Positions 172 through 32,533 of a DNA stretch of 37,313 nt are shown here, in pieces; the stretch's first letter is position 1, and each line of letters starts with the position of its first letter. The position numbers and the translations under genes were made by a program. The stretch lies in contig QHVT01000037.1 of NCBI GenBank assembly GCA_003223645.1, positions 1-37,313 on the forward strand, given 5' to 3'. This stretch comes from Acidobacteriota bacterium (GTDB lineage Bacteria; Acidobacteriota; Thermoanaerobaculia; Gp7-AA8). Under the pieces are notes generated by a model. That model had not been told where the DNA came from, made no database searches, and saw only the letters and a list, made by a program, of their open reading frames with translations.

Positions 172-368
172 GCCTAACTCGAGCCAGAAGCCGACACGGC
201 CCGGCGCTGGCCCGGCAGCCGAGCTGCCTCGTCAACATATTAGTTTGAGGGGCGGCACGCCAGCCGCAATCGCTCCCGCCGACTGCGCGTTAGTCGCTGC
301 GGCCGCCGTGCCGCGTCGGCTTCGGCACGTGGGCCCTGGCCGTGCAGCTTAGGCTCAAGCCGTTAGCC
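172..368 (+). other. attC-like recombination site, copy 1
   Basis: The outer ends are GCCTAAC (172-178, fits the R'' consensus RYYYAAC) and GTTAGCC (362-368, one base off R' GTTRRRY). Inside them GAGCC pairs with GGCTC, and AAGC plus CACGGCC pair with GGCCGTG plus AGCTT, giving the interrupted-stem architecture of integron attC sites. The sequence around AAGCCGAC also resembles the aadA-type attC. The 197 bp length is above the usual 57-141 bp because of an extended central part with further hairpins. A closely similar copy lies at 1531-1717 in the same orientation. An alternative is a MITE-like repeat. Confidence 0.5.
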
Positions 369-1711
369 GGGCCAAAATGCAGCCAAAGCCAACCTTAGCC
401 AGGAAGCCTGGCTTTGCCTGTCGTCCGCTTTATTTCCAGATGCCGCCGATCGGTCGCGCCCTTGCCTCCTCTGTGGCCGGAAGCGGCGTCACTTTCAGAA
501 GCGCCGCGATCGTGACAAACAAGTCCTCGTGATCGTAAATGTCGTCATTCACTCCCTGCAGAACATGGTCACCCCAAAGGACTGCATAAACTCGGTTGGG
601 ATGATCCGCATCTTCGTTATCGTCTTCGTCGAATGTGAGCACAAAAACTGTGTCGGTGGTGAACGCCGTATCCTTCAGAAGAGGCGCTATGTATCTCACT
701 AACCAGTCGTTTGCGTTCGCCATGTTTGATCGGGAATGACCATCATCCGTAAGGTTGGGAATGATCATCACAAATGCCGGTAGCGTACCGCCAGCAAGGT
801 CATCGCGTAGTGCTTGCGTAACCTTCACAACGTCGCGCGGAGCGGGGAGGCTGGAACTTACTATCTGTGGTGTCTGGTCCGAGTTCAGCCGGACGATTGC
901 ACTACAATCAACGCCCTTGAAATTCAGAAATGGCACATGGCGTCGCACGTAGGTGCCCGCCTGTCGCGACGAACTGCAGGTATTCGGATTATTCGGGGTC
1001 GGGTAGTCTTCTGCGTACACCTTCCAGCGAGCCGGTAAGTGTTTGCCCAGATGATCACGGTCAAGCGTACCTGTCCAATCGCCATTCGTACCCGCCAGGC
1101 TGCCGGAGATCAGCGCTATGTAATTTGGCTGGCTCGGGTGCGCAACGGCGAAGTATTGCCTGAGCACCATCCCCTCCTTTGCGCGATCAATCATGAATTG
1201 CTGGCTTTCAGCTCGCTCCGGATTACCGTTCTCCAGAATAATCATAACGACCCGCTGAACACCTACCGGCGAGAACTCTGGAACTGCATTTCGCGAGGCG
1301 GGGAGTGGTGTACGGATCGTTCCACGGCCAAACAGGGAGAGCAGGCCGTGCCCGACTCCGGCTTGCAATGGGCCAGCATGCAACGCGAAAACGACTGTGA
1401 TCAGCAGAATGGCGCGGCGCTCGAACAAGGTGACCTCCAGCGAATGGAGTGATGAAAAACCCATTCTATATATGGAGGGCCACCGCGCCGGATTTCCCTA
1501 CCCCTGCACTGGCAGGCCAGTCGCGGGCCGCGCTAACTCGAGCCAGAAGCCGACACGGCCCGGCGCTGGCCCGGCAGCCTAGCTGCCTAGTCAACACACT
1601 AGTGTGGGCGGCGGCACGCCGCCAGCATCGCGCGAGGTTACATGCGGGCAGGCGGCGTGCCGCGTCGGCTTCGGCACGTAGGCTCTGGCCGTGCAGCTTA
1701 GGCTCAAGCCG
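363..1711 (+). mobile_element. candidate integron gene cassette carrying a phosphoesterase
   Basis: The interval runs from the crossover position in the first GTTAGCC (after the G at 362) to the equivalent G at 1711 in the second, which is how an integron cassette is delimited. It contains a single gene, reading opposite to the attC orientation, plus the attC-like site. No integrase or attI is present in the window. If the repeats are not attC sites, the interval is simply a gene flanked by about 190 bp direct repeats. Confidence 0.4.
430..1428 (-). CDS. secreted phosphoesterase (acid phosphatase / phospholipase C-like)
   Basis: The protein belongs by motif to the phosphoesterase family (PF04185-type), metal-dependent hydrolases of phosphomono- or diesters. 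Visible signatures are the early ILENGN metal-ligand region, HPSQPNYIALISGS, a downstream DEDDNEDADH acidic cluster and YDHEDLF near the C-terminus. The N-terminus is a clear signal peptide (basic MFERRA, hydrophobic ILLITVVFAL, cleavage near LQA), so it acts outside the cytoplasm. I chose a TTG start at 1428 because GGAGGT sits 4-5 bases upstream; an in-frame ATG at 1464 adds 12 residues but has no Shine-Dalgarno and spoils the signal peptide. It is alone between two attC-like repeats, reading against their orientation. Exact substrate is unknown. Confidence 0.8.
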   Translation of the reverse strand: MFERRAILLITVVFALHAGPLQAGVGHGLLSLFGRGTIRTPLPASRNAVPEFSPVGVQRVVMIILENGNPERAESQQFMIDRAKEGMVLRQYFAVAHPSQPNYIALISGSLAGTNGDWTGTLDRDHLGKHLPARWKVYAEDYPTPNNPNTCSSSRQAGTYVRRHVPFLNFKGVDCSAIVRLNSDQTPQIVSSSLPAPRDVVKVTQALRDDLAGGTLPAFVMIIPNLTDDGHSRSNMANANDWLVRYIAPLLKDTAFTTDTVFVLTFDEDDNEDADHPNRVYAVLWGDHVLQGVNDDIYDHEDLFVTIAALLKVTPLPATEEARARPIGGIWK

Positions 1712-1717
1712 TTAGCC
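1531..1717 (+). other. attC-like recombination site, copy 2
   Basis: This is the second copy of the repeat at 172-368. Left end CGCTAACTCGAGCCAGAAGC and right end GGCTCAAGCCGTTAGCC are nearly identical to copy 1, while the middle third has diverged and here forms a strong palindrome around GGCGGCACGCCGCC. Conservation of both ends with a variable middle is how attC sites behave. It fits the left-end consensus less well (CGCTAAC rather than GCCTAAC). The 1718-1903 stretch after it holds no gene I can support. Confidence 0.45.
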
Positions 1718-4879: not shown

Positions 4880-7051
4880 TGCGTGTGGTTTTGCGCATTG
4901 TCCTCGTACTCGTCGTGCTAATGGCGCTGTTGTGGTTTGGAGGGCGCTGTTATCTGGCGCGCTCGGTGGCGCAGGATGACGGCGTGATTACGACCGGCGT
5001 CGCGGCTCCTGTGGAGATTACGTTCGACGGGAAGGGTGTGCCGCAGGTTTGGGCGAAGACGGACGGCGATGCGTTCTTTGCCATTGGGTGGCTGCACGCG
5101 TCGGAGCGTTTGTTTCAGATGGAGCTGGTGCGGCGGCTCTCTCGTGGGGAGTTGTCGGAAGTGTTCGGCGCCGTTGCATTGGAGACCGACATCGCGCAGC
5201 GGCGTGCCGGATTTGCCCGACGCGCACATGCGGCTGCGGCGCCGGCGGTGATGCAGCGGTACGTGGACGGGATTAATGCCTGGATTGTGCAGGCGAAGAT
5301 ATTGCCACCCGAATTCGTGGTTCTGCGATTGAAGCCGCGCAAGTGGACGATTGAGGATTGTCTGGCGATCAGCGGGTATCAGACGTGGTTTTCCCACGAG
5401 CTGATGGACCAGGACCGGAAATATCAGTCGCTGATGGAGAAAATCGGGATGCCGGCGTCCGTGCTGGCGCATGCGGGGCATCCGTGGTCTCCCTCGACGG
5501 TGCCGGAATATCGGATGACCAATGCGTCGAATTCGTGGGTGCTGTCTCCCTCGCGCTCCGCTTCGAAGGCCGCATTGCATGCATCCGATCCGCATTTGTC
5601 GATCGATCAGGTGCCGGGGCTCTGGTATCTGGCGGGGTTGCACTCGGATGAGGGACTGAATGTCGTCGGCGTGACCTACGGCGGAGCGCCGTTTGTGGTG
5701 ATGGGTCACAATGACTCGATTGCGTTTTCTTTTACGGTTGCGTCGGTCGACGTCATTGATTACTACGAGGATGCGCCGACGTCCGTCATTGCGCGAGAGT
5801 CGATTCGCGTAAAGGGGGAGGAAAGGCCGCGCATTGTGGAGTTTAAGAGGGGTGGCCGAGGAGTGATGATCGACGAGAAGACGTCGATGCATTGGGCGGG
5901 GTTTGATTTTGCGCCGAATGAGATCACGGATGCCGGGTACCGCCTGCAGAAGGCGAAAACATTCGATGATTTTCGCAAGGCGGTTACGCGCTTCGGCGCG
6001 CTGGATGCGAATTGGATTTACTCCGATCGGAACGGAAATATCGGTTATCAGCTCGGAGCGCCGGTTCCGATTCGCGACTATGACTCTTATGTGTGGCAGA
6101 AGGCGTCCGATCCGAAGAGCGCGTGGCGCGGATATCGTGCACTCGACGACACGCCGCATGCGTTGAATCCGGCGCAGGGGTTTCTCGCGAGCTGCAACAA
6201 CCAGATCGTCCCGCCGGCCTGGCCCTATCCCGTGCCCGGCTTTTACGACCCGTATCGCATCGTGCGTGCAACGGCGCTGCTTCCGACGAAGCACACGCGC
6301 GACGACATGCACGCGATGCAGCTCGACCTCACGTCCACGATCGCGATGCGCTGGAAATCGCTCGCCGTCGACGGCGCGCAGGCGGCAAATCTGCCGAGGG
6401 AGTCGCGCATGCTGCGCTCGTGGGATGCGCGAATGTCGGACGACAGCCGCGCGGCGACGCTGTTCGAGGCGTGGTGGCGGATGCTGCCGCGCGCGATCTT
6501 CGAAGACGAGCTGGGCGGCGACTGGAACACGGGACGCGTGCTGCTCGATGAGGCGCTGACGACCAACTCGCCGGTGATCGACGACAAACGCACGAAGCGG
6601 GTCGAAACAGCGACAGATATTTCCGCGCGGGCGATGAAAGATGCAATCACGATCGCGAAGAATCGCACGTGGGGCGAGGCGTCGACGCTGACGGTCCGTC
6701 ATCCGCTTTCGCGCATGAAGCTGCTCGAGAAGTGGCTGCGTCTCGATCGCGGGCCCCGATCCTGCTCCCGGCGACGCGGGCACGCTGCACGCGAACTTTT
6801 TTTCGTACGACGAAACATCGAATTCGTTCCGCGCGCGCGTCGGGCCGAGCATGCGCTTCGTTCTCGACTGGTCGGACGTCGACGGCTTCATGTTGAACGG
6901 CGCGCTGGGGCAGTCGGGCAATCCGTTCAGTCCGCACTATGACGACTTTCTTTCGATGATGCGCCGCGGCGAGGAGTGGAACGTGCCGTTTTCGCGCGCG
7001 AAGGTTTACGCGAAACGCGCGTCGCTGCTGCGCCTCGTGCCGAAACATTGA
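4879..7051 (+). CDS. penicillin acylase family hydrolase, frameshifted near 6751
   Basis: The protein is a membrane-anchored or exported Ntn-hydrolase of the penicillin acylase family (PF01804-type), which cleaves amide bonds of acyl compounds such as beta-lactam side chains or acyl-homoserine lactones. A hydrophobic segment at residues 3-20 is followed by VPQVWAKTDGDAFFAIGWLH ASERLFQMEL, and the autoprocessing site N-A/S-N-S-W places the catalytic nucleophile at Ser217, starting the beta chain. DPHLSIDQVPGLWY and GHNDSIAFSFT are further signatures. The uninterrupted frame from 4879 runs to 6942 but loses homology after LRLDRGP. One extra base in the GGGCCCC run at 6751-6757 explains this: the next frame continues PDPAPGDAGT and ends properly with LDWSDVDGFML to VPKH at 7051. 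Total about 723 residues, normal for the family. Substrate not predictable. Confidence 0.85.
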
Positions 7052-7160: not shown

Positions 7161-7454
7161 ATGGCAGCAGGTCCGATGACCAAATCGCAGCTCATCAACT
7201 ACATTTCCGAAGAAGCTGAAGTTCCGCGCAAGACGGCGACGAAGATGCTCGAGGCGCTCGGCGCGTGCGCGTATCGCGAGGCGAAGAAGGGCTTCACGCT
7301 TCCCGGCCTCGGCAAGCTGGTTCTCGTGAACCGCAAGGCGCGCATCGGCCGCAATCCGGCCACCGGCGAGTCCATCAAGATCCCGGCGAAGAAGGTGCTG
7401 AAGTTCCGCATCGCCAAGGCCGCGAAGGACGCGATCCTCGGATTGAAGAAGTAG
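7161..7454 (+). CDS. HU-family DNA-binding protein
   Basis: A 97-residue nucleoid protein of the HU/IHF family, which binds and bends DNA as a dimer. It shows the family order: MTKSQLINYISEEAEVPRKT dimerisation helices, GFTLPGLGKLVLVNRKARI leading into the beta arm, and the arm-tip signature GRNPATGESIKIPAKKVLKF with the conserved DNA-intercalating region around RNPATG. Two starts are possible, 7161 (MAAGPMTKS) or 7176 (MTKS); the AAGGAG at about 7142 is rather far from both, nearer to 7161. It appears to be monocistronic. The gene is followed at once by half of a palindromic repeat (7466-7496) that could act as a transcript 3' end hairpin. Confidence 0.95.
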   Translation: MAAGPMTKSQLINYISEEAEVPRKTATKMLEALGACAYREAKKGFTLPGLGKLVLVNRKARIGRNPATGESIKIPAKKVLKFRIAKAAKDAILGLKK

Positions 7455-7465
7455 CGAGATCGTGG

Positions 7466-7496
7466 GACGGCGGCCGAAGCGGCCGCCGCTCCACTC
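7466..7496 (+). repeat. palindromic element family A, half copy
   Basis: GGCGGCCGAAGCGGCCGCC followed by GCTCCAC is the right half of the element seen complete at 9627, 25966 and 30171. On its own it forms a short strong hairpin between HU and the acetyltransferase gene. Confidence 0.8.
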
Positions 7497-7509
7497 TGGA
7501 GGTTCGTCC

Positions 7510-8046
7510 TTGCCACATCGTTATCCGCAGGAGGCGGCGCTGCGCGACGGCCGCCGTGTGCTGCTTCGCCCGTTCGGGGAGCGCGACGTGAATGCGCTCC
7601 ACGATTTCTTTCATCGCATGCCGGTCGAGTACCGGCGCTTCGCGTGGGACAACGTCGACAACCGCGCGCTGATCGAGGCGTGGGGCCGCGAAGTCGACTA
7701 CGACAAGGTGTTCCCGCTGATGGCGTTCGACGGCCATCACGTCGTCGCCGATGCGACGCTGCACATGCGCGAGGGTGGTCCGCTGCGTCTGGTCGGCCGC
7801 ATCAAGTGGATGCTCGATCCCGAGTATCGCGGCGCGGGACTCGGCACGACGCTGGTCAATCACCTGATCAACATCGCGCGCGAGCGGGGACTGCGTCACG
7901 TGAATGCGATGCTGATCTCCGATCTCGAGGCGGACGCGGTGAAGACGCTGGAAGGACTCGGATTCGCGTCGTCGCTGCTGCCGGCGTACGGAACCGATCC
8001 GGATGGGAACCAGCACGATATGACGCATCTGGTGTTGAAGCTCTGA
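7510..8046 (+). CDS. GNAT-family N-acetyltransferase
   Basis: The 178-residue product has the GNAT fold: an N-terminal LRDGRRVLLRPFGERDVNAL strand-helix, central beta strands around VVADATLHM and, at about residue 112-125, the acetyl-CoA pyrophosphate loop DPEYRGAGLGTTLVNHLI (Q/R-x-x-G-x-G/A type). It resembles the GNAT domain found at the end of acyl-CoA synthetase-type protein acetyltransferases (Pat-like), but the substrate is unknown. I place the start at TTG 7510 because GGAGG precedes it by seven bases; the frame extends to a GTG at 7462, but that stretch is translated palindrome. It ends 2 bases from the convergent trmJ with no terminator between them. Confidence 0.85.
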   Translation: MPHRYPQEAALRDGRRVLLRPFGERDVNALHDFFHRMPVEYRRFAWDNVDNRALIEAWGREVDYDKVFPLMAFDGHHVVADATLHMREGGPLRLVGRIKWMLDPEYRGAGLGTTLVNHLINIARERGLRHVNAMLISDLEADAVKTLEGLGFASSLLPAYGTDPDGNQHDMTHLVLKL

Positions 8047-8773: not shown

Positions 8774-10129
8774 GTGCGTCGAGTCCCTGTCGTTCTGACG
8801 ATCCTGACGCTTCTTCTGTTCACGTGCGCGCATCGCAATGAAAAGCGCGTGATCTTCATCGGCCTCGACGGCGCGGACTGGCGTCTGCTCGACCGCTTCG
8901 TCGCCGACGCCACGATGCCGCAGCTCGGCGCGATCCTCGAGCACGCGGAGCGGCGCGTCCTGCTCACGCAGCATCCGCCGCTCTCGCCGCTCGTGTGGAC
9001 GACGATGATGACGGGCGTCTCGCCGCTGCGGCATCGCATCCTCGACTTCACGCGCTACTCGCCAGCGACGCGCGCGCAGGAGCCGATCACGTCCGACGAG
9101 CGCGCGGTGCCGGCGATCTGGAACATGGCCGCGTCGCACGGAAAACGCGTCGGCGTGTTCGGCATGTGGGCGACGTATCCGCCCGAGCCGGGAATCGTGT
9201 TGACCGATCGCGATCTGCCGCGCGATTACGTCGCGGCCACGGAGCTCATTCACAGCAAAGCGAGAGCATGGATTCGCGCGAACGAGCCCGATCTCGCGAT
9301 CGTCTACTTCCAGGGCACGGACGAGATCGGACACTTCACGTCCGGCGACGTCGAGAAGTCGCGCGCGTACTTTCATCGCATCGACGAGATCCTCGGCGAC
9401 TATCGCGCGCTCGCCGAAGAGCTGCACGCGCAACTCGTGATCGCGAGCGACCACGGTTTCGACTGGGGCGGCAAACACGACGAGTCGAGCACCGCGACCG
9501 CGACCGCGGCGAAGTGGCATCGCAACGAAGGAATCTTCGTGCGATGGCCGCACGCGAAAGCGATCAAAGAGCCGATGCGCGTCGATCAGATTTGTTCGAC
9601 ACTGCTCGAGATTCTCGACATGCATGGTGGAGCGGCGCCCGCTTCGGGCGCCGACCTCTCGCGAGAATCCGGCGGCCGAAGCGGCCGCCGCTCCACAGGA
9701 GACGAGCAGGTGGCGAAGTTGAAGGCGCTCGGCTACCTGTCATCCACCGCCCCCGCCCCGAAAACTACAACCGGCACGCGCACGCCGCAGTCGTTCAACA
9801 ACGAAGGGCTCATCCTTCGCGAGACGGGACGCGACGATGCCGCCGAGCGCGCGTTCATGCAAGCGCTGACGCTCGATCCAAACTACGCATCCGCAAAACA
9901 GAACCTCGACGATCTGCTCGCGAAGCGCGGCATCGAGAAGCTGAGAGCGCGCGATTGCAAAGGCGCGGTTGCGGATCTCCGTCGCGTCGCGAAGGAGAGC
10001 GCGCTGTTGTGGGCGTCGATCGCGGCCGCGGAAGGATGCCTCGGCAACGACCGCGCGGCGGAAGACGCGGTGCGCCGTTCGCTCGCGTTGAATCCGAATC
10101 AACCCGAGCTTCGTCGTTTAGTAGACTGA
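8774..10129 (+). CDS. alkaline-phosphatase-superfamily phosphodiesterase lipoprotein with TPR tail
   Basis: The N-terminus is a lipoprotein signal (LTLLLFTCAH, lipobox Cys about residue 15). Residues 20-280 form a type I phosphodiesterase / nucleotide pyrophosphatase domain: VIFIGLDGADWRLLD holds the first metal Asp, PPLSPLVWTTMMTGVSPLRH the Thr nucleophile region, FQGTDEIGHF and ASDHGFDWGGKHD the second metal cluster. Residues about 325-450 are tetratricopeptide repeats. This arrangement is common in proteins annotated as alkaline phosphatase family with TPRs; the natural substrate is unknown. Residues about 285-308 are encoded by a complete family A palindromic element (9627-9696), inserted in frame exactly at the end of the catalytic domain. 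The GTG start has no Shine-Dalgarno. The gene is followed 18 bases later by the TonB receptor. Confidence 0.85.
   Translation: MRRVPVVLTILTLLLFTCAHRNEKRVIFIGLDGADWRLLDRFVADATMPQLGAILEHAERRVLLTQHPPLSPLVWTTMMTGVSPLRHRILDFTRYSPATRAQEPITSDERAVPAIWNMAASHGKRVGVFGMWATYPPEPGIVLTDRDLPRDYVAATELIHSKARAWIRANEPDLAIVYFQGTDEIGHFTSGDVEKSRAYFHRIDEILGDYRALAEELHAQLVIASDHGFDWGGKHDESSTATATAAKWHRNEGIFVRWPHAKAIKEPMRVDQICSTLLEILDMHGGAAPASGADLSRESGGRSGRRSTGDEQVAKLKALGYLSSTAPAPKTTTGTRTPQSFNNEGLILRETGRDDAAERAFMQALTLDPNYASAKQNLDDLLAKRGIEKLRARDCKGAVADLRRVAKESALLWASIAAAEGCLGNDRAAEDAVRRSLALNPNQPELRRLVD
9627..9696 (+). repeat. palindromic element family A, complete, inside a CDS
   Basis: Seventy bases bounded by GTGGAGCGGCG and CGCCGCTCCAC with a central TCTCGCGAGA palindrome, so three nested dyads. 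It is translated in frame within the phosphodiesterase as a Gly/Ala/Ser/Arg-rich linker. Related copies lie at 25966 and 30171, a half at 7466. Confidence 0.9.
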
Positions 10130-13461: not shown

Positions 13462-13933
13462 ATTCTTCGCCGCGCGTTTGGAGCAGGAGATCCCGGCATT
13501 CGTGAAAGTGTTGAAGGCGATTCCGCCGGACAAGTTCGACTTCCGGCCGCACGAGAAAAACACGCCGGCCGGCGCGCTGGCGAGACAGATCGCGACGGAG
13601 ATCGATTGCCTCACCGGTTTGTTCAGGAACGGCACCGCTGATTTCAAATCCGCCGGCGGCCCGGAAACGCTCGACGAGATCGTCGCGATGTTCGAGAACG
13701 GCGCGAAAAGCGTCGTCGCCAGCGCAAAGTCGACGAACGAAGATCTCTGGCGCGGCCCCGCGAAGTTCGTCTTCGACGGCCACGTCGCGTGGGAAGCATC
13801 GGCGGCCGACATCGCCTGGGGATTCCTGTTCGATCTCATCCACCATCGCGGACAGCTCAGCGTCTACCTTCGCCCGATGGGAGCGAAGGTGCCGGCGATT
13901 TACGGGCCCTCGGCGGATGACCCGGGGGTGTAG
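13448..13933 (+). CDS. DinB-family protein
   Basis: A 161-residue four-helix-bundle protein of the DinB/YfiT superfamily. The diagnostic C-terminal motif LIHHRGQLSVYLRPMG followed by VPAIYGPSADDPGV is clear and carries two of the metal-ligand His positions. The first His, usually in a 'x-x-H-x-A' at the start of helix 2, appears replaced: the aligned region reads AGALARQIATEID. Some family members are thiol-dependent S-transferases, others are uncharacterised. It overlaps the upstream acetyltransferase by 14 bases. The stop is followed directly by a tandem-unit hairpin (13934-14043) facing a convergent gene. Confidence 0.85.
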   Translation: MRNYEFFAARLEQEIPAFVKVLKAIPPDKFDFRPHEKNTPAGALARQIATEIDCLTGLFRNGTADFKSAGGPETLDEIVAMFENGAKSVVASAKSTNEDLWRGPAKFVFDGHVAWEASAADIAWGFLFDLIHHRGQLSVYLRPMGAKVPAIYGPSADDPGV

Positions 13934-14043
13934 AGGCTCAGAGGCTCATAGGCGCACAGGCTCATAGGCGCACAGGCTCATAGACTTCTTTGAGCCTCTG
14001 AGCCTCTGAGCCTCTGAGCCCATGAGCCCATGAGCCTTGCCTC
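13934..14043. repeat. hairpin made of tandem units (GGCTCATA family)
   Basis: The left arm is built of units such as AGGCTCAT and AGGCGCAC (a 16 bp unit repeated about 2.5 times), the loop is ACTTCTTT, and the right arm repeats GAGCCTCT three times and GAGCCCAT twice. The arms are imperfect complements of about 50 bases. It fills the whole gap between convergent genes and could be a bidirectional terminator. The same units recur at 21059-21229, also between convergent genes. Confidence 0.85.
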
Positions 14044-15077: not shown

Positions 15078-15788
15078 ATGAACAAAACGCACTGGAAAAT
15101 CGGCGAGCTGGCAAAGCGGACGGGTGTGTCGATCCGGACGCTGCACCACTACGACGAGATCGGACTTCTCTCTCCGTCGCACCGCACGGAGTCGGGCCAC
15201 CGGCTGTACGGCCGCGAAGAAGTCGTCCGGCTGCAGCAGATCCTCTCGCTGCGGCAGTCAGGGTTCTCGCTCGAAGAAATCCGCTCGATGCTCGCCCGCC
15301 GGCATTCCAACGCGCAGCAATTCATCACACAACACATCGCGCGACTGCGGCAGCAGATCGCCGCGCAGCAGGAGCTCTGCGCGCGGCTGGAGCGAATCGC
15401 GGAGCGCTACGAATCGGCGAGCGCCGAAGAATTCATTGAAGCAATCGAGGTGATGACGATGTTCGAAAAGTACTACACGAAAGAGCAGCTCGAGACGCTG
15501 CGCCAGCGCGCCGAGACCCTCGGCGACACGCATATCAAGGAAGTGGAACAGGAGTGGCCGCGCCTCATCGCGGACGTCCGCGCCGAAATGCAGAAGGGCA
15601 CCGACCCGAAAGACCCGCACATCCAGGCGCTCGCGACGCGATGGATGGAGCTCGTGCACGAGTTCACCGGCGGCGATCCCGGCATCACGCAGTCGCTGAA
15701 GAACCTCTACGCGGGCGAGCCGGAGCTCACTTCGCAGCAGGCGCTCGACAGCGAGATTTTTTCCTACGTTCGCAAAGCATTGTCGTAG
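15078..15788 (+). CDS. MerR-family transcriptional regulator with TipAS domain
   Basis: A 236-residue regulator. Residues 6-75 are the winged-helix MerR domain (KIGELAKRTGVSIRTLHHYD, then GHRLYGREEVVRLQQI), residues 75-120 a coiled dimerisation helix, and about 125-236 a TipAS ligand-binding domain (YYTKEQLETLRQRAE, EWPRLIADVRAEM, ELVHEFTGGD, YVRKAL). TipAS domains of TipAL and relatives capture antibiotics or other hydrophobic ligands and switch on promoters with 19 bp spacers; such a promoter lies directly upstream. The ATG has no Shine-Dalgarno. Stop is followed at once by a tandem-unit hairpin. Confidence 0.92.
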   Translation: MNKTHWKIGELAKRTGVSIRTLHHYDEIGLLSPSHRTESGHRLYGREEVVRLQQILSLRQSGFSLEEIRSMLARRHSNAQQFITQHIARLRQQIAAQQELCARLERIAERYESASAEEFIEAIEVMTMFEKYYTKEQLETLRQRAETLGDTHIKEVEQEWPRLIADVRAEMQKGTDPKDPHIQALATRWMELVHEFTGGDPGITQSLKNLYAGEPELTSQQALDSEIFSYVRKALS

Positions 15789-15916
15789 TTAGTTACGCGG
15801 TTGCGCGGTTGCGCGGTTGCGCGGTTGCGCGGTTACGCGGTTACGCGGTCGCGCGGCATAAGACGCGGTATAACCGCCGAGTGACCGCGCAACCGCGTAA
15901 CCGCGCAACCGAGGTT
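15789..15916. repeat. hairpin made of tandem units (GCGCGGTT family)
   Basis: The left arm repeats the 8-mer TTGCGCGG/TTACGCGG about eight times; after a spacer of about 25 bases the right arm repeats its complement (ACCGCGCA, ACCGCGTA). The right arm runs into the GluQRS reading frame. A related hairpin is inside menD at 27987-28050. Confidence 0.88.
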
Positions 15917-16702: not shown

Positions 16703-16799
16703 CCGTCATCCTGAGCCGCGAAGACGGCGAAGGATCTCTAAATGCGAAACGGTTGCGTAACTCGAGATCCTTCGGCGTCTTCGCGCCTCAGGATGACGG
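16703..16799. repeat. palindromic element family B, complete
   Basis: CCGTCATCCTGAG at the left and CTCAGGATGACGG at the right, with inner arms GAAGGATCT and AGATCCTTC, form a long stem directly after the gluQ stop codon. A second copy is at 25862-25962. It may serve as a transcript 3' end. Confidence 0.9.
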
Positions 16800-16802
16800 T
16801 TC

Positions 16803-16850
16803 ATTTCTGCTTTCTGCTTTCTGCTTTCTGCTTTCTGCTTTCTGCTTTGC
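16803..16850 (+). repeat. single-arm tandem repeat of TTTCTGC
   Basis: The 7-mer TTTCTGC is repeated about six times. The same unit, in both orientations, makes the two-armed hairpin at 31577-31681; here only one arm is present, just upstream of the Shine-Dalgarno of the next gene. Confidence 0.9.
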
Positions 16851-16867
16851 TTTGAACGGAGGTTCGC

Positions 16868-21058: not shown

Positions 21059-21229
21059 GGGCGCAGAGGCGCACGGACTCGGCCGGGGCGCAGAGGCGCA
21101 CGGGCTCATGGGCTCATAGGGTTTTCTATGCGCCTGTGAGCCTATGAGCCCATCGAGGCGCAGAGGCGCACAGGCTCAGCGGCTCATAGTTTTCTATGCG
21201 CCCGTGAGCCTATGAGCCCATGAGCCTTT
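21059..21229. repeat. two hairpins made of tandem units (GGCTCATA family)
   Basis: Two successive copies of the pattern GAGGCGCAC-GGCTCAT-AG, a TTTTC loop, CTATGCGCC-TGTGAGCC-TATGAGCCCAT. Units are shared with the hairpin at 13934. It lies between convergent genes and its right end contains the last codons and the stop of thrC. Confidence 0.88.
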
Positions 21230-22403
21230 GCTCGACCGCGTCGAGCGTCGCGTCGATCTCCAGCACCTTCTCGGCCCGGAAGTTCGCTTCCGGGTCTTTG
21301 AGGATGTGTCCCGTGAGCACGCAGACGATGCGCTCGCCGTCTTTCATCACGCCTTTCGCGCGCAGCTTCTGCACACCCGCGAGCGTGGTCGCCGACGCGG
21401 GCTCGCATCCGATTCCCATTCCGTCGATCGTCCGTTTCGCCGACATCAACTCGTCGTCGGTGACTTCTTCGACGATGCCGTTCGTGTCGCGGATCGCGGC
21501 GACGGCTTTGTCGTGGCTGACGGGATCGCCGATGCGGATCGCGGTGGCGATCGTTTCGGCGGTGACGGTGTGTCGCGTCGCGAAACCTTCGCTGAAGCTG
21601 CGATAGAACGGGTTCGCGCCGCACGCCTGGATCGACGCCAGTCGCGGCACGCGTGCGATCCAGCCGCGTTTGTGCGCTTCGCGCAGCGCCTTGCCGAACG
21701 CGCTCGTGTTGCCGAGGTTGCCGGCGGGGACGACGATCCAATCGGGCGCGTCCCACTGCAGGTCCTGCAGGATCTCCCACACGATCGTCTTCTGTCCTTC
21801 GATGCGAAACGGATTGATCGAGTTGACGAGATAGATGTTGAAGCGCGCGCACGCCTCGCGCACGAGACGCATCGCCGCATCGAAGTCGCCGCGAATGGCG
21901 AGACAGGTCGCGCCGTAGGCGAGCGTCTGCGCGAGCTTGCCGCTCGAGATTTTTCCCGCGGGGACGAACACGATCGCTTTGAGTCCGGCCTGCGCGGCAT
22001 ACGCGGCAAGCGACGAGCTCGTGTTGCCGGTCGACGCGCACGCGACCGCGGTCGCTTTCAGTCGCACGGCCTGCGTCACCGCGACGGTCATGCCGCGATC
22101 CTTGAACGAGCCGGTCGGATTCTCGCCTTCATGTTTGAAGAAGATTCCGTTGCGCTCGTACAAGCGCGTCCCGCCTTCGGGGTGCGTGATCGCGCGATCG
22201 ACGTTGAGCACGCCCTCGCGAAAACGCCACACGCCGCTCTGATCGATCGGCGCATGCGACGTGCTGCGGTCATCGAACGAATTGCGGTCGATGAGGTGAT
22301 CGCGTTCCACCTCCAACAGATCGCCGTCGTGATCGCACGTGTAGCGGATCTCGTCGATCGGGAAGCGATGCTTGTTGGCGATGCACTGCAGCCACTCGCT
22401 CAT
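21210..22403 (-). CDS. thrC: threonine synthase
   Basis: The PLP enzyme that converts O-phosphohomoserine to threonine, last step of the pathway encoded by this operon. The PLP lysine is in NPTGSFKDRGM, the phosphate-binding loop in ACASTGNTSSSLAAYAA, and the NSINPFRIEGQKTIVWEI stretch is typical. The N-terminal rubredoxin-like knuckle of many homologues (CxxC ... CxCGG) is degenerate here: LQCIANKHRF and YTCDHDGDLL keep one Cys of each pair. Start ATG 22403 overlaps the thrB stop (ATGA); upstream frame to 22487 is not coding. The last residues EQRLMGS and the TAG stop lie within the tandem-unit repeat, so the C-terminus is repeat-derived. 397 residues. Confidence 0.95.
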   Translation of the reverse strand: MSEWLQCIANKHRFPIDEIRYTCDHDGDLLEVERDHLIDRNSFDDRSTSHAPIDQSGVWRFREGVLNVDRAITHPEGGTRLYERNGIFFKHEGENPTGSFKDRGMTVAVTQAVRLKATAVACASTGNTSSSLAAYAAQAGLKAIVFVPAGKISSGKLAQTLAYGATCLAIRGDFDAAMRLVREACARFNIYLVNSINPFRIEGQKTIVWEILQDLQWDAPDWIVVPAGNLGNTSAFGKALREAHKRGWIARVPRLASIQACGANPFYRSFSEGFATRHTVTAETIATAIRIGDPVSHDKAVAAIRDTNGIVEEVTDDELMSAKRTIDGMGIGCEPASATTLAGVQKLRAKGVMKDGERIVCVLTGHILKDPEANFRAEKVLEIDATLDAVEQRLMGS

Positions 22404-25965: not shown

Positions 25966-26036
25966 GTGGAGCGGCGGCCGCTTCGGCCGTCGGCCTCTCG
26001 CGAGAAATCGGCGGCCGAGAGCGGCCGCCGCTCCAC
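25966..26036. repeat. palindromic element family A, complete, intergenic
   Basis: Seventy-one bases from GTGGAGCGGCGGCC to GGCCGCCGCTCCAC with central TCTCGCGAGA. Directly adjacent to the family B copy, so the 25837-26055 gap between menG and thrA is almost entirely repeats. Confidence 0.92.
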
Positions 26037-26055
26037 TGTTTCGGTTACACCCTCC

Positions 26056-30102: not shown

Positions 30103-30734
30103 TCCGGACTCTATCCGGGTTCCTCGGCCTGGAATCGGATTGGGACTTCCTCCCCTGGCCGCATGTGGAAGTGGAGCGGCGGCCGCTTCGGCCGCCGACC
30201 TCTCGCGAGAATCCGGCGGCCGGGAGCGGCCGCCGCTCCACTGACGTCTTGCTCGGCTACTCCATGGGCGGTCGCCTCGCTTTACGCATTCTCGAGGAAA
30301 GTCCATTTCACAAAGCCATCATCGTCTCCGCGGGTTTGAACGCGTCCGACGAAGAACGGCGTGCGCGCGACGAATCATGGGCGCGCCGATTCGAGTCCGA
30401 CGATTGGTCGACGCTCATGCGCGATTGGAACGCGCAGCCCGTCTTCGGCGGCCACGTGCTCGATCGCCGCGAAGCGGACTACGACCGCGCGGAGCTTGCG
30501 CGTCAGTTGCGCGAGTATTCGCCGGCCGTCCTTCCGCCGCCCGAGCTCGAGCGCATCGAGACGCCGATTCTCTGGATCGCCGGCGAGCGCGACGCAAAGT
30601 ACGTCGACTTCGCGAAACGCGCGGTCGCGCGTCTGCCGCACGCGGAATTGTGGATCTGCCCGAACGCGGGACATCGCGTTCCGTGGGAGCAGCCGGACTC
30701 ATTCGTCAGTCGTTTGCGCGCCTTCATCGAATGA
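30099..30734 (+). CDS. menH: MenH-like alpha/beta hydrolase with a palindrome-encoded segment
   Basis: Expected SHCHC synthase, removing pyruvate from the MenD product. It has an N-terminal [14 protein letters not shown], the nucleophile elbow [14 protein letters not shown], an acid candidate in [10 protein letters not shown] and the catalytic His in [11 protein letters not shown]. It is only 211 residues against about 250-270 in typical MenH. The part that normally holds the second and third strands (the DLPGHG region) is gone, and residues 25-48 are instead translated from a complete family A palindrome (30171-30241). Whether the enzyme is still active is doubtful. The GTG start overlaps the upstream stop; menB follows 16 bases later. 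Confidence 0.78.
30171..30241 (+). repeat. palindromic element family A, complete, inside menH
   Basis: Seventy-one bases from GTGGAGCGGCGGCC to CGCCGCTCCAC with central TCTCGCGAGA, nearly identical to the copies at 9627 and 25966, translated in frame. Confidence 0.93.
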
Positions 30735-31575: not shown

Positions 31576-31576
31576 A

Positions 31577-31681
31577 AAGCAGAAGGCAGAAAGCAGAAAG
31601 CAGAAATGGCCCGGGGATTTCCTCACAGCCTCGCACGATGACGAACGCCATTTCTGCCTTCTGCCTTCTGCTTTTTGCTTT
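31577..31681. repeat. hairpin made of tandem units (AGAAAGC family)
   Basis: The left arm is AAGCAGAAGGCAGAAAGC extended to AGAAATGGC, the right arm is GCCATTTCTGCC and further TTCTGCC/TTCTGCT units, about 35 bases each with a 36-base loop. It fills the menB-menA gap and its right end reaches the menA ATG. Single-arm copy at 16803. Confidence 0.9.
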
Positions 31682-32533
31682 ATGAACAGCTGGTTCCTCG
31701 CCGCGCGCCCCAAGACCCTTTCCGCCGCGATCGTGCCGGTGCTCATCGGCACGTCGCTCGCGGCGCCGCACATTTCGTGGCCGCTCTTCGCGTGCACATT
31801 GATTGGTGCAGTGCTGATTCAGATCGCGACGAACTTCATCAACGACGCGTTGGATTTCAAAAAGGGCACTGACACCGCCGAGCGACTCGGACCGATGCGC
31901 GTCACGCAAGCGGGCCTGCTCAGCGCTGACGCGGTTCTGCGCGGCGCATGGATCTGCCTCATCGGCGCAGCGCTCTGCGGCATCCCGCTGATCGTGCGCG
32001 CCGGCTGGCCGCTCCTCGCGATCGGACTCGCGTCGATGCTGCTCGCGTACGCGTACACCGGCGGCCCGATGCCGCTCGCCTATCACGGACTCGGCGAGCT
32101 GTTCGTCATCCTCTTCTTCGGCGTCATCGCCGTCGGCGGCACGTTTTACGTGCAGACGCTGCGCTACACGCGCGAGGCATTGCTCGCCGGTCTCGCGGCC
32201 GGCTCGCTCGCGACCGTGTTGATCGTGATCAACAACCTGCGCGACATCGAAGGCGATCGCCGCGGCAACAAGCGCACGCTTGCCGCGCGATTCGGCGAAA
32301 CGTTCGCGCGGATCGAGGTCGTCGTCTTCGCGCTCGCGCCGTTCGCGCTCGTTTTCACGATCGCGTGGCTGCCGCTCATCGCGCTGCCGCTCGCGCTCCT
32401 CGCCATCGCCTGCGCCACCCGCGGTCGCGGCGCCGCCCTCAATCGCTGCCTCGGCATGGCCGGCGCGCTGCAGTGGGCGTTCGGTATCCTGTTCGTCATC
32501 GCATGCAGCTTTGGATTTGGCGCTACACGCTGA
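31682..32533 (+). CDS. menA: 1,4-dihydroxy-2-naphthoate polyprenyltransferase
   Basis: A 283-residue membrane prenyltransferase of the UbiA superfamily that attaches the isoprenoid tail. The two Asp-rich motifs are present: NFINDALDFKKGTDT with its following RLGPMRVTQAGLLS, and NNLRDIEGDRRGNKRTLAARFG. The N-terminal ARPKTLSAAIVPVLIGT is typical of MenA. About eight or nine membrane helices are visible. The ATG lies directly after the right arm of a tandem-unit hairpin with no Shine-Dalgarno. Its end overlaps menC by 31 bases. Confidence 0.95.
   Translation: MNSWFLAARPKTLSAAIVPVLIGTSLAAPHISWPLFACTLIGAVLIQIATNFINDALDFKKGTDTAERLGPMRVTQAGLLSADAVLRGAWICLIGAALCGIPLIVRAGWPLLAIGLASMLLAYAYTGGPMPLAYHGLGELFVILFFGVIAVGGTFYVQTLRYTREALLAGLAAGSLATVLIVINNLRDIEGDRRGNKRTLAARFGETFARIEVVVFALAPFALVFTIAWLPLIALPLALLAIACATRGRGAALNRCLGMAGALQWAFGILFVIACSFGFGATR

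Follow-up and report, generated by a model that had tools for sequence, protein, structure and literature searches.

What are the two long direct repeats at the start of this contig, and do they bound a mobile gene cassette? The window, i.e. the whole stretch of 37,313 nucleotides that was analysed (contig C34:1-37313), belongs to a draft genome of 6.38 Mb in 51 contigs that is 96.67% complete. A first-pass annotation of its sequence had proposed an integron cassette between two attC sites with R''/R'-like boxes, flanking a single reversed phosphoesterase gene. Both direct repeats are present on the plus strand, at 172-368 (197 nt) and 1531-1717 (187 nt). Their ends are similar (a 95-nt block is 89% identical and a 72-nt block 93%), and their middles are unlike in sequence and length, as that annotation had also noted. 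Copy 1 reads R''-L''...L'-R' on the top strand and carries both of the proposed boxes, R'' as GCCTAAC (172-178), which fits RYYYAAC, and R' as GTTAGCC (362-368), which is one base off GTTRRRY. Copy 2 carries the same R' box (1711-1717), whereas its R'' box (1531-1537) is CGCTAAC, off RYYYAAC at the first two bases. The core YAAC and the core GTTR are present in both copies. The cut in the first site we take, from established integron knowledge, to fall after G362; the R' boxes would then delimit a gene cassette of 1,349 bp between two expected cut points (363-1711). The single long open reading frame between the repeats lies at 430-1464 on the minus strand, reversed with respect to the attC orientation as had been claimed, and encodes a phosphoesterase-family protein of 344 aa (Pfam PF04185, E 3.3e-19). 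An Rfam scan of the window gave no match at gathering scores.

The repeats were evaluated with a strict attC rule that comprises R boxes, an asymmetric spacer, L boxes and two extrahelical bases six pairs apart. This rule was adopted after two others had been tried, a relaxed finder and a finder for the full R-box consensus (RYYYAAC/GTTRRRY), the latter of which missed both window sites and is satisfied by several sites of relatives. On the 37,313-base window the strict rule gives two matches only, i.e. the two repeats (score 17 each), and it gives none on 20 windows simulated from a first-order Markov model. A looser rule without the extrahelical bases gave 39 matches at a score of 9 or higher in six simulated windows (best, 14.0), and in the window it scored the repeats at 13.5 and 13.0 and found four other matches; since this rule yields chance matches, loose resemblance alone is insufficient. 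As a positive control, the strict rule gave 30 matches in 23 of 80 named IntI loci. On the fitting side and strand were 28 of these, 22 in the classical arrangement (minus strand, left of intI) and six in the inverted one (plus strand, right of intI); two fit neither. Both window copies have paired L boxes, an unpaired asymmetric spacer and two extrahelical bases on the R''-L'' arm. The first site has the L box GAGCC, the first extrahelical base AG/A, the six-base block AAGCCG and the second extrahelical base A, and the L box and extrahelical bases of the second site are the same. The interrupted inner stems that had been read from the sequence, with the extrahelical bases needed by IntI six pairs apart, are thus found in both copies. 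Known attC sites have these bases 6-8 nt apart, according to the excerpted text of PMC2727003.

The same plan extends to other sites. In 36 sites from this genome and its relatives, the first 38 nt were aligned to the last 38 nt in reverse complement. Most of these sites follow the order R box, asymmetric spacer, L box, extra base in the 5' arm, six pairs, second extra base and further stem; clear exceptions were C7a, C4a and G012d. It was from this plan that the strict rule was drawn up. For an arm-swap control, 31 sites were chosen because their own arms pass the strict rule (the 36 aligned sites without C7a, C7b, C4a, C41, G012d, G012s1 and G013b, and with C47 and G014z added). These passing sites contain 22 L-box strings, about a dozen after nested strings are merged. 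Swapped arms satisfied the rule in 11 of 768 combinations between genomes, and in 55 of 930 between any two sites. Within a set that was selected for passing with its own arms, the 5' and 3' arms appear to co-vary, as compensatory change would have it. In all 31 family sites the first extrahelical base, read on the top strand, ends in G, and a top-strand G at this position occurs in other named IntI loci as well.

Predicted folding was less uniform. The bottom-strand MFE structure of copy 1 has the R and L boxes paired (z -3.4), and that of copy 2 does not contain the R/L-paired form (z -4.7). The pfold of the recombinogenic form is 0.32 for the bottom and 0.10 for the top strand of copy 1, and 0.059 and 0.033, respectively, for copy 2; other sites with a low probability of this fold include C51b (3e-5) and C7b (0.008). 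Among 24 sites, folding favoured the bottom strand in 10 and the top strand in 13, with one tie, and by itself modelled folding gives no argument for use of the bottom strand. In known attC sites the choice of strand is set by the extrahelical bases, as described in the excerpted text of PMC2727003.

The repeats are not confined to the window. A DNA search of the genome with the repeat gave at least 40 matches (scores were computed for 40 of 93 candidates). Of the searches with half-elements, one gave at least 31 (with 40 out of 71 candidates scored) and the other 26 (with all 38 scored). Merged, these represent at least 41 full or partial elements in 29 clusters, the weakest with E near 0.01. 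All 11 clusters with multiple copies have them on the same strand; the other 18 clusters contain a single recognisable site. Many of the approximately 41 copies are partial, split or decayed, and the strict rule, which misses decayed copies, passes seven of them (two in the window and five in the 28 loci fetched from this genome). Repeat matches at E 0.001 or better were found in 10 of 60 genomes, its own included.

The window harbours further repeats of other types. GC-rich palindromic repeats (GTGGAGCGGCGGCCGCTTCGGCC..., with CTCTCGCGAGA at the centre) occur at 9627-9699, 25966-26038, 30171-30243 and 7468-7494. Inverted arrays of an 8-nt unit (GAGGCTCA/AGGCGCA type) with the potential for long hairpins lie at 13925-14032 and 21084-21238. 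At 15784-15911 the 8-nt tandem repeat GTTGCGCG and then its inverse make up a hairpin array, and one like it lies near 37.6 kb of contig C8 (L193, about 5580-5730). A long palindrome and 7-nt CTTTCTG-type repeats are seen at 16703-16851 and 31576-31684.

The first-pass annotation had left a choice between the edge of a chromosomal array and a lone dispersed cassette. No integron integrase was found over the cut-off in this assembly; 11 weak matches were obtained, none of which covers IntI model positions 187-236. The best IntI-like match, a 342-aa frame on contig C35, falls into two pieces of 99.5 and 87.8 bits, where the cut-off is 265, skips model positions 181-236, and was rejected. No recombinase matches lie on the window contig. 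A complete integron, i.e. intI and attI beside the sites in the same genome, is thus not seen, and the two sites of the window instead correspond to a CALIN (two or more attC sites with no IntI nearby). With no integrase found here, the window represents a CALIN-type cluster and not the edge of a demonstrated array.

Related genomes do carry integrases. The 18 relatives comprised 17 genomes of the family and one of the order; nine of them, all family members, have a TIGR02249 match above the cut-off, as against none of 14 control genomes. Homologous sites in the relatives were located with a profile built on 19 copies of the present genome. In G002, intI ends at L093:5031, and long sites stand 0.9 and 2.4 kb past it, at 5935-6128 (194 nt; partial match, E 1e-6) and 7426-7620 (195 nt; E 1.8e-16). 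On contig C130 of G012, intI (which covers only model positions 30-313) is followed by nine loose-rule sites in steps of 350-690 bp, seven of which pass the strict rule. Two of the nine are 135-nt homologues of the window sites (L083:6911-7045, E 2.5e-10; L083:4023-4157, E 2.1e-5), and the remaining ones are ordinary attC sites of 98-104 nt. The same-genus genome G001 has an array of five strict sites (175-198 nt) on contig C9, and its intI lies apart on contig C25. On the seven IntI-bearing contigs of the family, one of which (G014:C165) has an intI that is broken over two frames and below the cut-off, all 17 strict sites are located 3' of intI and on the intI strand. Further copies near an integrase, which would be expected of attC sites, are hence found in relatives (G002, G012), and in this genome no IntI was found for them to adjoin.

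In G001 (L081:7421-8476), intI directly follows a trehalose-synthase-like gene. At the corresponding place of the present genome (L193:4918 onward), other reading frames come after the matching gene and intI is absent; the location of the integron platform thus differs within the genus. Homologues of the phosphoesterase (E 1e-10 or better) were found in three of the 17 family relatives and not in G001. Within approximately 1.5 kb of the three homologues there is no strict attC and one loose-rule match, and they therefore do not demonstrate mobility of the window cassette.

In a tree built from 10 IntIs of the family and 31 of the 80 named IntIs, G001, G002 and G012:C130 form one clade (100/97), and G004, G005, G009, G011, G012:C61 and G015 a second (98/93). 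The fetched intI contigs of the second clade have sites of approximately 105 nt in G005, G009 and G012:C61, and none were seen on those of G004, G011 and G015. That the type of attC goes with the clade of IntI is no more than suggestive, because G015, from the second clade, has elsewhere in its genome a 58-nt match at 80% to the window site, and because G003, represented by an IntI fragment only and showing a 44-nt match at 93%, was left out of the tree. Outside the family, the window-type profile gave nothing credible against the 80 named IntI loci (best E 0.081), and short DNA matches (24-45 nt) were observed in three genomes from other families of the class.

A complete sedentary integron may nonetheless belong to this genome, with its integrase and array core in assembly gaps. 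We consider this possible, though the less probable history, and it would be compatible with the attC identity of the repeats. It is favoured by the 13 of 29 clusters that lie within 1 kb of a contig end, by the relatives, in which 7 of 10 intI contigs above the cut-off stop within approximately 1.5 kb of intI on the array side, and by the inflation of CALIN counts in draft genomes (excerpted text of PMC9024848). On the other hand, the assembly is 96.67% complete with no recombinase match across IntI positions 187-236, and nine of the 29 clusters are more than 20 kb inside contigs, so the clusters are not one array. Dispersal of some 41 copies, many of them partial, over 29 places could also be that of a REP- or MITE-like palindromic repeat family which is moved by a transposase and resembles attC only in its terminal boxes, and several other palindromic repeat families do share the window. 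This is very improbable: the 11 multi-copy clusters are all same-strand, the extrahelical bases and co-varying L boxes would go unexplained, and the IntI-linked homologues in G002 and G012, those of G012 amid ordinary attC sites of about 100 nt, contradict it.

Under the attC reading, the feature that stands out is length. The lengths of 197 and 187 nt had been described as above the usual maximum, and they indeed exceed the published range of 57-141 bp, in which sedentary attC sites are mostly 120-129 bp (excerpted text of PMC5371416). Strict sites in named IntI loci span 61-162 nt. In this genome, six of the seven strict sites measure 185-200 nt. The seventh, the copy C47 (L032:5606-5702), is 97 nt long, has the same arms as the sites of about 190 nt but no branched tip, and passes the strict rule; the terminal structure thus accounts for the length excess, which the arm plan can do without. 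The unfamiliar type that had been proposed is therefore an ordinary core plan in which the terminal structure alone is unusually long. Sites of 175-200 nt occur in two genera (that of the window genome and G001, and that of G002), and the 135-nt form in a third (G012). A second short copy of approximately 105 nt (L040 from 5054), with the same or similar arms and no branched tip, fails the strict rule. In the copies at L038:151-339 and 433-621, L032:4601 and L045:193, the arm is joined to another tip, which contains an ACTTAAG or TTAAGT motif and may represent a second terminal-structure type or a nested site. The sites extend the size of attC beyond the published range with the core geometry kept, and the forms of 97 and 185-200 nt with the same arms offer a natural pair for asking how far a terminal structure can grow and still work.

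The tip is also where the least expected part of the finding lies, i.e. its use by an intron. Across the 28 loci fetched from this genome, there are nine contig ends that fall within a sequence that begins with GTGCGCC and ends with CTACCCGAC. Four of them are 5' junctions, with the exon ending in GGTTG (L027:5943, L028:8782, L037:5252, L038:244), and five are 3' junctions, with the exon beginning with C (L029:159, L031:169, L034:5016, L035:5059, L042:5302); combined, they give the insertion site GGTTG|C, and the same string is present in uninterrupted copies. Rfam identified a group II intron domain in this sequence (RF02005, 84.2 bits), with further matches slightly under gathering scores (RF02005, 46.8 bits; RF00029, 38.1 bits). 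The intron is oriented with the cassettes at seven of the nine junctions and opposite at two, where it sits in the stem's mirror copy. The introns probably caused the contig breaks. Three RVT_1 matches were obtained, on contigs whose fetched stretches carry none of the attC-borne intron ends. We tentatively suggest that the branched tip of approximately 100 nt, absent from the 97-nt copy with the same arms, is a distinct attC module of one lineage, and that it serves as a sequence-specific home for a group II intron which may enter either strand at GGTTG|C, the stem being near-palindromic, and which would thereby travel on cassettes by another route than IIC-attC introns. That the repeats are primarily landing hairpins of this intron (terminator-like targets) and not recombination sites would account for nine junctions at one place in the element, but is the least probable reading of all, as the intron uses the terminal structure only, the two window copies and the IntI-linked sites of relatives are intron-free, and the R and L boxes, the extrahelical bases and the IntI link are left unexplained.

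Ten proteins of this genome and G012 were searched in Pfam, which gave matches to TIR, CAP12-type TIR, FRG, ParE-like, zinc dehydrogenase, methyltransferase and HicB, one PIN match just under the cut-off, and two proteins without a match. TIR, CAP12/Pycsar-type TIR, FRG, ParE-like and HicB proteins are cargo of the kind that cassettes carry, which favours the attC reading. The TIR, CAP12/Pycsar-TIR and FRG proteins (L024:7536-8714, L028:4304-5410, L028:7817-8680), in or beside attC-bounded stretches, are defence-like cargo of the scattered cassettes. Of the open reading frames of at least 60 aa between sites, many of which are probably not genes, 32 of 46 follow the attC orientation; the window gene does not.

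Taken as a whole, the repeats are almost certainly attC sites with an enlarged, branched and variable terminal structure, which bound one cassette (363-1711) that carries the phosphoesterase gene in reverse and lies within one of the 29 clusters scattered over an assembly in which no IntI was found. The attC reading first made from the letters has held up in structure and through homologues beside IntI in relatives of the same family, and, as far as comparison of sequences reaches, attC identity is strongly supported by sequence, structure and association and appears secure. Points against it are that no IntI was found here, nor at the place where G001 has its intI, that the R' box GTTAGCC of both copies and the R'' box CGCTAAC of copy 2 are off consensus, that only 7 of about 41 copies pass the strict rule, that the recombinogenic fold has a low predicted probability in copy 2 and some other sites, and that the window gene is reversed. 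In integrons, the R and L boxes are the contacts through which IntI binds the bottom strand of attC, single and folded; IntI reads the extrahelical bases, and one strand is exchanged at G/TT of R', by which cassettes are inserted in a fixed orientation. Copies of the window type may once have been moved by such an IntI, which would now be lost from this genome or lie within an assembly gap; they could have been scattered when cassettes inserted at secondary sites of the genome, or when an older array was rearranged. How cassettes leave arrays could be explored in this genome, over which attC-like sites are scattered by the dozen and in which no integrase is visible.

The finding is a long-tipped form of a known kind of site. 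None of the open-access titles and abstract openings examined dealt with attC sites this long, with an intron inside the attC terminal structure, or with Thermoanaerobaculia integrons. The closest relations are the attC sites of sedentary chromosomal integrons (e.g. VCR of Vibrio cholerae), which likewise have R and L boxes, an asymmetric unpaired spacer, two extrahelical bases about six nt apart, a variable terminal structure, same-strand clusters and similar sites within a genome; the window sites differ from them in their length of 187 and 197 nt. They differ also from the attC sites of PMC2727003, the excerpted text of which describes a conserved G on the bottom strand at the first extrahelical base, whereas a bottom-strand C is found here. 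CALINs, as characterized in the excerpt of PMC9024848, share the two or more attC sites with no IntI nearby, but here 29 small clusters, 18 of them single-site, are spread over one draft genome. The intI genes of the relatives are read towards the array, as in the sub-clade of inverted-integrase integrons (excerpted text of PMC8352920); this layout is already known and not new, and is here observed in a family assigned to the Thermoanaerobaculia, within the Acidobacteriota. Group IIC-attC introns, finally, are likewise group II introns inside attC; their insertion point is TTGT/T of R'' on the bottom strand, and they run counter to the cassettes (excerpted text of PMC7923331). The present intron, known here as group II only, departs from this pattern, with all nine junctions inside the terminal structure, at GGTTG|C, and seven of the nine in cassette orientation; its recurrent insertion at a single point in the tip suggests that group II introns have a second means of exploiting integrons.
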